Positions 17,755 to 19,862 of a stretch of DNA of 64,000 bases are shown here, piece after piece; the stretch's first letter is position 1, and the number at the start of each line of letters is the position of its first letter. The notes beneath the pieces are model-generated. The model saw nothing but the letters and a program-made list of their open reading frames with translations, ran no database searches and was not told the origin of the DNA. Where the stretch lies: assembly GCA_949287655.1 (NCBI GenBank), contig CASEHD010000015.1:1-64000 (forward strand), read 5' to 3'. A program made the position numbers and the translations under genes. Source of the stretch: an uncultured Christensenella sp. (lineage in GTDB: Bacteria > Bacillota > Clostridia > Christensenellales > UBA3700).

Positions 17755-18034
17755 ATACCAGCCCAGAATAATACGAACCAGCCCTGAGGCGAGCCTTTTA
17801 TGCGTTTTTTAGCGATTCTCACTTGAAAAATATTATAATATTATCTGCGTTCGCCTCGCTGAAACACACACTAAAAATCATCGCCTAAGGGTGCATGCAG
17901 TTTTAAGCCGGCAAATTTTTGTTGATACAAGGCAAATGCCGCAGGTAATATCAGACATCTTATCAAGGCATTTAACGCAGTAGCTACGAAAATTTGCCGC
18001 TTTAAACCAGGTTCGTATTCTTCTGGTCTGGTAT
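17755..18034. mobile_element. MITE-like element, copy 1
   Basis: A 280-bp non-coding element with terminal inverted repeats of about 25 bp beginning ATACCAGCCCAG; the right end matches the left with two mismatches. Inside is a second, imperfect inverted repeat pairing GCCGGCAAATTTTTGT with ACGAAAATTTGCCGC. The same element appears in inverted orientation at 19594–19862; copy 1 carries about 10 extra bases (near 17880–17890). No ORF of useful size is present, so it would depend on a transposase elsewhere. Both ends read TA-CCAG…CTGG-TA, which fits a TA target of the IS630/Tc1 type, but a target duplication cannot be separated from the repeat itself. Confidence 0.8.
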
Positions 18035-19068
18035 CGTCTGGTTTTCGACAATTAAATTTTTACGCGTGCTGTATCCGGGGCAAGAGGATATATGATTGTT
18101 TTTTATGTCGGAATTGACAGAGAGCGGTTAATGCGAGTAATTTTTTACATCTGTCAAGTAGATTTATAAGCGATAAAACATTAATAATAATTAATAATAC
18201 TAAAAATTGAGATGAGGATTTTTTCAGGTAACAGTTTATTTTATCTTGACGCGCCGCACTGTATATTCGGCAAGTTGCGGACTTTTACGCTGTGTTGTGA
18301 CTTTAAAATAATTGATACTAATTATTAATAATTAATAATACTTATACAAGTTTATGATAGGTCGGTCGTTTTATACTCGTACTTTTTTGAAACATGTCTG
18401 TCGTTTTGCCTGACATGGTTTGTTTAAAGTAAATGTAGAGAAGTTGCTGTAAGTTTATTGAGAGTGTGCGCGGTAAATTCGATAGGATCGTGTTTTGCGA
18501 CGGGATTGCGAGTTGATTATCTCGTCTTGGATTGTTGGGGAGGAAAACATTAATTAGAATCGTCGTTATTAAGAAAATGAGCTTGCCGAGAAGAGAGACC
18601 GTCAGGTCGGGTGAAATTAAGCGTAAGACCGTATTTATCTTTATGCAACAACACTATCGTTGACCGGATCTGGTCGGGATAATTTTAAAGTTTTGAATTG
18701 ATGTTTTATTCGCTTATTAAAAGGTTCATTTTTCAGTCTTTATATTCATTCGTTTAAATTGCGTTTGCCGCGTCTATCTATGCGCTTATTTTATTTATAT
18801 TTGTATCTTTTTGTTTTTACGGCATTATTCCGGCAATTCGCCGTTATTATCTATTGCTATAAAGTCTTGCTTTTGCAGGAATCGTTTAATTATCGCGTTT
18901 GAAGCGTGAGCGGAAATATCGTTGTAACGGTTTTCCGGTTTTTTACGGACAGTCGCATAAATCATCTTGTCGGATTGTCTGAAAACCCGCTTTGATAAGA
19001 CCTTTTTCGCTTTAAGTTTCCCGGCAAAAACTTAACGATAAATATATAAATATGTTTTCAAATTTTAC
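18035..19068. other. AT-rich stretch without genes
   Basis: About 1 kb with no open frame of 60 codons on either strand. It contains an exact 16-bp repeat, AATAATTAATAATACT, at 18186–18201 and 18327–18342, and several T-rich runs. A segment around 19010–19040 weakly resembles the inner arm of the nearby MITE-like element. I see no tRNA or recognisable structured RNA. It reads like decayed or inserted DNA between guaB and the DUF7662 gene. Confidence 0.7.
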
Positions 19069-19097
19069 TTGTAATTACTGTAAAATAATGTTATAAT
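19069..19097 (+). promoter_or_regulatory. Promoter of the DUF7662 gene
   Basis: TTGTAA at 19069–19074, a 17-bp spacer and a consensus TATAAT at 19092–19097. The predicted start is near 19104, about 38 bases before the start codon, which has the SD GGAGGA. Confidence 0.75.
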
Positions 19098-19141
19098 GGT
19101 AACCGTTAGAAAAGCAAGAAAAGATACATTCGGAGGAAGCT

Positions 19142-19534
19142 ATGGCTATTACCGTTGAAGAACTCTCCATGCAGGTGCAGGCTCTCGAAGCCAGACTTGA
19201 AAAGATCGAAGCGCTGCTTGAAAAATCCGCGCCCGTTCAGAAAGCGCCCAGAGAGAAAGAAGAAGTTTATAATGTCGGAGTTAAAGGGAAGTACAGATTT
19301 TTGGCGGACTTCTTGCACAATCACGGCGGAGACAGTATAACCATGACTTTCAAACAAATAGAAGATCTTATCGGACAGCCTTTGCCGTCGTCCGCTTACA
19401 ATCACCGCGCTTATTGGTCGAACACCGATACGCACTCTATCTCAAAGGTGTGGATGCAGGCGGGTTATATGACGACTTACGTCAATCTTCTCAGCCGCAA
19501 GGTAGTGTTTGAAAAAAAGCGCAAATTCGACTGA
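19142..19534 (+). CDS. DUF7662-like small protein with coiled-coil N-terminus
   Basis: A 130-residue protein of unknown function. Residues 1–35 form a short coiled coil (EELSMQVQALEARLEKIEAL). Residues about 50–128 match a widespread small domain (DUF7662-like) by its spaced motifs: KYRFLADFL, TFKQIEDLIGQPLPSSA, HRAYWSN, WMQAGY and KVVFEKK. In other genomes this domain occurs alone or beside nuclease and restriction-like genes; that is family background and not evidence of function here. The gene has its own promoter, SD and terminator and lies between two inverted copies of a MITE-like element in otherwise gene-free DNA, so it may be accessory. Confidence 0.8.
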   Translation: MAITVEELSMQVQALEARLEKIEALLEKSAPVQKAPREKEEVYNVGVKGKYRFLADFLHNHGGDSITMTFKQIEDLIGQPLPSSAYNHRAYWSNTDTHSISKVWMQAGYMTTYVNLLSRKVVFEKKRKFD

Positions 19535-19570
19535 TATTTACCGGATATATTTTGTTTGAATATAAAAATG

Positions 19571-19593
19571 CGACCCTTACAGGTCGTTTTTTT
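19571..19593 (+). terminator. Terminator of the DUF7662 gene
   Basis: Stem CGACC/GGTCG (19571–19575 and 19582–19586) and a T7 tract ending at 19593. The next base is the first base of MITE-like copy 2, so the element abuts the tail of this terminator. Confidence 0.8.
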
Positions 19594-19862
19594 ATACCAG
19601 CCCAGAATAATACGAACCTGGTTTAAAGCGGCAAATTTTCGTAGCTACTGCGTTAAATGCCTTGATAATATGTCTAATATTACCTGCGGCATTTGCCTTG
19701 TATCGACAAAAATTTGCCGGCTTAAAACTGCATGCACCGATTTTTAGTGTGTGTTTCAGCGAGGCGAACGCAGATAATATTATAATATTTTCAAGTGAGA
19801 ATCGCTAAAAAATGCATAAAAGGCGCGCCTCAGGGCTGGTTCGTATTATTCTGGGCTGGTAT
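19594..19862. mobile_element. MITE-like element, copy 2 (inverted relative to copy 1)
   Basis: A 269-bp element whose outer 25 bases are perfect inverted repeats (ATACCAGCCCAG… and its complement at 19838–19862). Read as the reverse complement it matches 17755–18034 nearly throughout, with only scattered substitutions and the roughly 10-bp difference noted for copy 1. The inner inverted repeat (GCGGCAAATTTTCGT with ACAAAAATTTGCCGG) would allow a long cruciform or RNA hairpin. No coding potential. Perfect ends suggest this is the younger copy. Confidence 0.85.

Follow-up and report, generated by a model that had tools for sequence, protein, structure and literature searches.

A probable MITE family with AT target duplications and a conserved two-stem-loop fold in Christensenellaceae-type Clostridia

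Introduction

Short non-autonomous DNA transposons (MITEs) are a well-known kind of element. Correia elements of Neisseria are MITEs with a strong stem-loop structure and a TA target duplication. MITEAba12 resides together with its parent ISAba12 and makes 9-bp duplications (PMC6382973), and QMITE2 of Coxiella has terminal inverted repeats (TIRs) of 23-29 bp and target duplications of 7-9 bp (PMC10969869). Among insertion sequences, IS30 duplicates 2 bp, leaves a spacer of 2 bp where its ends are joined, and uses its own ends as targets (PMC9333248).

Here we analyze two inverted repeats flanking an accessory gene in a 64,000-nucleotide stretch of DNA from an uncultured Christensenella sp. (the window). 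We conclude, with a probability of about 0.9, that both are copies of a MITE family of Christensenellaceae-type Clostridia that is mobilized in trans; the latter part is inferred, since no transposase with the ends of the MITE was found. The family is real and apparently new: the literature we searched, with partial coverage, held no description of it.

Results

A sequence-only reading of the window had pointed to near-identical inverted copies at 17755-18034 and 19594-19862. Self-comparison of the window recovered them as three inverted arm pairs, 17890-18034 with 19594-19738 (97% identity), 17827-17879 with 19739-19791 (100%) and 17755-17829 with 19788-19862 (97%); overall, the two copies are 94% identical. 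The same reading had described 25-bp terminal repeats, perfect in copy 2 and with two mismatches in copy 1, together with an inner repeat, and we found both: the terminal repeats match at 100% in copy 2 and 92% in copy 1, and an inner inverted repeat of 27 nt (81%) is present in each copy. The window holds four TIRs against a chance expectation of 0.00. Inspection of the open reading frames of the window revealed no plausible gene within either copy, as had been claimed; a single spurious 63-codon frame (19556-19747) overlaps copy 2. The refined limits of the element leave the outermost AT on each side as the duplicated target. In the window, the element is a non-coding sequence of 265-276 bp with 23-bp TIRs, internal hairpins and the end sequences ACCAGACCAGAATAATACGAACC / GCCRGACCGGAATAATACGAACC. 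The features are as follows.

17757..18032, + strand: probable MITE copy 1, 276 bp, ACCAG...CTGGT; alignment with family members, 94% identical to copy 2
19596..19860, - strand: probable MITE copy 2, 265 bp, inverted relative to copy 1; alignment with family members
17755..17756, no strand: probable AT target duplication, left of copy 1; AT throughout the family and empty sites of other copies
18033..18034, no strand: probable AT target duplication, right of copy 1; same basis
19594..19595, no strand: probable AT target duplication, left of copy 2; same basis
19861..19862, no strand: probable AT target duplication, right of copy 2; same basis
17757..17779, + strand: TIR, left end of copy 1; repeat search and TIR pattern
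18010..18032, - strand: TIR, right end of copy 1, two mismatches; repeat search and TIR pattern
19596..19618, + strand: TIR of copy 2; repeat search and TIR pattern
19838..19860, - strand: TIR of copy 2; repeat search and TIR pattern
17781..17892, + strand: predicted left stem-loop of copy 1, conserved helices 2-4; compensatory changes between genera, coordinates from alignment A1
17900..18007, + strand: predicted right stem-loop of copy 1, helices 5-8, containing the inner repeat 17902-17928/17980-18006; repeat search and alignment A1 fold
19736..19836, - strand: predicted left stem-loop of copy 2; alignment A1 fold
19621..19728, - strand: predicted right stem-loop of copy 2, with the inner repeat 19622-19648/19700-19726; repeat search and alignment A1 fold
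19142..19534, + strand: accessory gene between the copies, outside the element, 130 aa, DUF7662 (PF24698, E 1.5e-18); ORF list, domain match and comparison with relatives

If these are MITEs, the genome should hold more of them. With copy 2 as the query (E<=0.001), we found about 40 full or partial copies in the genome that carries the window (G000; 1.94 Mb, 32 contigs), and a search of the same genome with the TIR pattern returned 53 ends, against 0 for a reversed control. Within the genus (g1), 8 of 13 genomes have matches. Judged by guaB, the closest genomes with a name are MAGs of uncultured Christensenellaceae and Clostridia. A family-level search beyond the genus yielded stray ends only, one of which, in G013 (genus g2 of the same family), proved to be part of a complete 321-bp element with the same TIR and a diverged interior. 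At the order level, elements of 277 bp turned up in genus g66, which belongs to another family; they share these ends, and their interiors are homologous, though diverged. The IMG/VR, plasmid and phage collections gave no match to the MITE. The element is thus short, bounded by TIRs, devoid of a transposase gene and dispersed in many copies, and together with the empty sites described below this upholds the MITE-like nature that had been proposed from the two copies.

Copies vary in length. Those assembled in G000 have internal deletions that differ from copy to copy and lie around the center of the palindrome. Long variants of 335 to ~560 bp occur in G002 (L199 3-481, L200, L201, L202), the longest with repeated internal modules of ~60 bp. 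The genomes are drafts (MAGs where named) and many copies lie at contig ends. The length variety in G000 is probably in part a survivor effect: copies whose internal deletions are unique assemble, and full-length ones break contigs. The MITE is a large interspersed repeat of this uncultured gut lineage, and with many contigs ending inside it, it likely breaks assemblies.

To read the target, we joined seven insertion sites of G000 across the MITE and searched for them in the genus. Three gave readable empty alleles, which we scored with several alternative cores between the left and right flanks. The site of the copy at C12:79031-79178 is empty in G002, with left+AT+right scoring best. That of C11:42645-42835 is also empty in G002, again with AT as the best core (GCCGCTT-AT-CGCGGCA versus GCCGCTT-GT-CGCGGCA), and that of C3:112217-112432 is empty in G007, G010 and others, AT being best against both G007 and G010. 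In the closest informative pairs, all three sites fit their empty alleles best, ungapped, as left+AT+right. For the two copies in the window, the flanks in the sister-species locus L069 are too diverged for an exact empty site. In L176 and L183, ~70 bp of unrelated extra sequence lies near the C3:112217 insertion site of G000.

The sequence-only reading had taken the ends as TA-CCAG...CTGG-TA and suggested a parent transposase of the IS630/Tc1 type. This would make TA the duplicated target and the flanking A and T a target preference, and the ends can indeed be read as A-TA-CCAG...CTGG-TA-T. Our own first reading of the empty sites was TA as well, and we dropped it after rescoring with multiple cores and in light of the ends in g66. 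With few empty sites, and species ~75-86% identical there, AT scores above TA in five site-relative pairs (L169, L182, L191, L171, L173), and TA slightly above AT in one (L180); more distant relatives are uninformative. Elements of g66 end in ATGCC...GGCAT, which is impossible as a TA duplication. Independently of the empty alleles, these ends place the base beside the conserved CC within the element and leave AT as the sole direct repeat. These comparisons make AT, rather than TA, the most probable duplicated target. The matching transposase is missing too: the IS630 domain DDE_3 is absent from all 13 genus genomes, including that of the window, while control genomes matched. We therefore set aside the proposed parent; an IS630/Tc1-type enzyme is unlikely.

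AT adjoins 136 of 142 distinct ends in g1 and all 23 ends in g66 plus g2. The flanks favor T at -3 (p 2e-26 and 1e-4), G at -5, G/C at -4 and C/T at -8. Related copies are among the ends counted, which leaves the counts only partly independent. This palindromic preference (pyrimidine -8, G -5, G/C -4, T -3, AT) is common to both genera and equal at both ends; the target is therefore a palindromic site of ~16 bp centered on AT.

We also looked for the mobilizing enzyme. A full-length transposon with the same ends, which the earlier reading had proposed to seek, did not turn up: searches at the genus, family and order level, and of the neighbors of one-sided copies, found no autonomous element, in draft genomes of a kind that often lose multi-copy elements. 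One-sided copies were considered as the ends of a full transposon and rejected, as the adjoining frames look like host genes and include no recognizable transposase. DDE_Tnp_1 matches are limited to an IS1182-like element in G000 and one match in G008. The only such match in G000 (L219, G000:C2:54423-55091) belongs to a transposase that we take, by recognition, to be IS1182-like; we rejected it as the parent, its best candidate end repeat (CAGACCGTAGACAAA/TTTGTCTACAGTCTG) being different from the TIR of the MITE.

One candidate is an IS30-like transposase, which would explain a 2-bp duplication, a palindromic target and insertion beside existing ends to give IR-2bp-IR junctions. The target of the IS30 family is symmetric, like that of the MITE. 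Consistent with such an enzyme, a head-to-tail GGT-AT-ACC junction lies beside an older copy at G000:C5:92965, and there are two more in G009. However, all these tandem junctions reach contig ends, the G009 pair share the same variant end, and some may be assembly products. Moreover, rve transposases are absent from G000 and from seven g66 genomes, and none with matching ends was found in other genomes: the rve matches in G002, G004, G005, G008, G011 and G012 are IS3/IS481-like and lack the TIR core, and we rejected them as parents. We regard an IS30-like enzyme as possible but doubtful.

With serine integrases, a 2-bp core remains on either side, and the inverted half-sites measure roughly 25 bp. 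A serine recombinase using AT as its crossover dinucleotide and the TIRs as attP half-sites would resemble the MITE in both respects. In G000:C5:137-1190 (L026 137-1190), a truncated MITE is fused to a reading-frame fragment and lies beside a remnant of a PF13408 recombinase zinc ribbon, near an apparent tmRNA 3' end. The remnant, next to the truncated copy at G000:C5:137-249, could be a trace of such an enzyme, but it adjoins the apparent tmRNA end and might have nothing to do with the MITE; a serine recombinase would also be unusual as the source of dozens of short, dispersed copies. We consider this improbable.

The TIR itself also occurs away from the MITE. Other genomes of the genus, as well as g5 and g66, have ACCAGACCAGAATAATACGAACC, 23 nt identical to the TIR, behind the ACCA with which tRNA-Leu genes or partial tRNA copies end; a reversed-pattern control gave 0 matches. 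After tRNA-Leu in g49 (family f24) and after tRNA-Val in g24 (family f19), there are close variants of the sequence. The tRNA-linked sequence forms a hairpin, usually with a T-run. In several genera and families, we observed this hairpin, ACCA-GACCRGAATAATACGAACC-loop-GGTTCGTATTATTTTTTGC and variants, directly 3' of tRNA-Leu or tRNA-Val genes or of partial tRNA 3' ends (L147 ~1490-1570, L148, L149, L150, L225, L232 and L234-L239). It has the appearance of a terminus of an integrative element that targets tRNAs. The 23-nt TIR equals the ACCA of the tRNA together with the first arm of the hairpin, and either sequence may derive from the other. Descent of the TIR from the tRNA-linked sequence, extended to the whole family, would give hairpin MITEs spread across the order, with TIRs that go back to a terminus of a tRNA-anchored integrative element. 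The enzyme moving them would not be of the IS630 type, for instance a serine recombinase or an undescribed transposase, and would depend on the folded two-stem-loop structure. We offer this as a speculative and rather unlikely scenario.

Copy 2 folds far more stably than its shuffles (z -9.9 and -8.2 on the two strands). Alignment A1 comprises 18 elements from three genera, with a mean column identity of 60%, and its consensus fold is a TIR stem carrying two stem-loops. Paired cells amount to 95%, versus 32-41% with the partners slid by 1-3 columns, and 29 of 66 pairs have changes on both sides. As judged from this alignment, the two-stem-loop layout is kept by compensatory changes between genera, in a contrast that is mostly one split, g1 versus g66/g2, so that a few events recur throughout the count. 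Template switching, too, can homogenize inverted repeats.

A stable fold with compensatory changes across genera could mean that a structured RNA, regulatory or terminator-like, preserves it. Such an RNA should favor one strand, but among 48 pairs predicted from both strands there are 20 G-U and 13 A-C cells, with no strand clearly favored. Because these counts are close, a constraint at the DNA level explains the fold as well as RNA does. Rfam covariance models gave no match at the gathering score and none near significance, and other species lack the element at the three positions tested. We accordingly ranked the RNA-element reading low; a structured RNA role seems unlikely.

We finally examined the locus. 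Copy 1 lies downstream of guaB, and copy 2 directly follows a T-run behind the DUF7662 gene. In L069, from a sister species, guaB, the DUF7662 gene and glyS have the same order and orientation without these insertions. The DUF7662 gene, present in the window and L069, was not detected between guaB and glyS in more distant relatives, in agreement with its description as accessory. Other MITE sequences occur in the same intergenic region at other distances: an intact left end in L067 and a degenerate copy in L068. An AT-rich repeat motif (ATTAATAATAATTAATAATACT) lies upstream of the DUF7662 gene at 18173-18349 of the window, and similar motifs are present in this intergenic region of L068 and L069.

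It had been suggested that the two copies could pair over their full length and allow inversion of the 1.56 kb between them. Pairing is possible in principle, as for any two inverted copies. There is no sign of inversion, since L069 keeps the gene order and orientation; by this comparison, the orientation in the assembly is apparently the ancestral one. A role as an invertible switch of the DUF7662 gene would fit two flanking copies of such high identity in opposite orientation; however, inverted pairs are expected from a 40-copy element, and with the arrangement in L069 a switch is very improbable.

Discussion

Our preferred reading remains that the two copies are MITEs. A transposase acting in trans, encoded by an element absent from or unassembled in these genomes, would recognize the 23-bp TIRs, cut at palindromic AT-centered sites and paste the element in with a 2-bp duplication. 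Copies would then decay, chiefly through loss of the palindrome center. Two independent insertions are the simplest account of the arms that flank the DUF7662 gene. A function in the cell is unnecessary to explain the copies; effects on transcript ends are possible. With an AT palindromic target, a conserved fold and ends common to several families, the mobilizing enzyme should be findable, and a transposon with the same ends would name it.

How does this family compare with known elements? The IS30 family (PMC9333248) shares the 2-bp duplication and end-to-end junctions with a 2-bp spacer, and differs in that neither an IS30-type transposase nor matching ends were found here. Like the BrickBuilt MITE of Porphyromonas gingivalis (PMC4596501), the longest G002 variants have internal repeated units, but sequence, host and ends differ, and the modules are longer and not a 23-nt minisatellite. 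MITEAba12 (PMC6382973) is likewise short, non-coding, bounded by TIRs, flanked by a target duplication, dispersed and present in related genomes; here, however, no parent was found and the duplication is 2 bp (AT). QMITE2 (PMC10969869) is of a similar size class, intergenic and very stably folded, whereas its target duplication and sequence differ, and in the present family the two-stem-loop layout appears to be kept by compensatory changes between genera. Correia elements, too, differ in target duplication and sequence from this AT-duplicating family.
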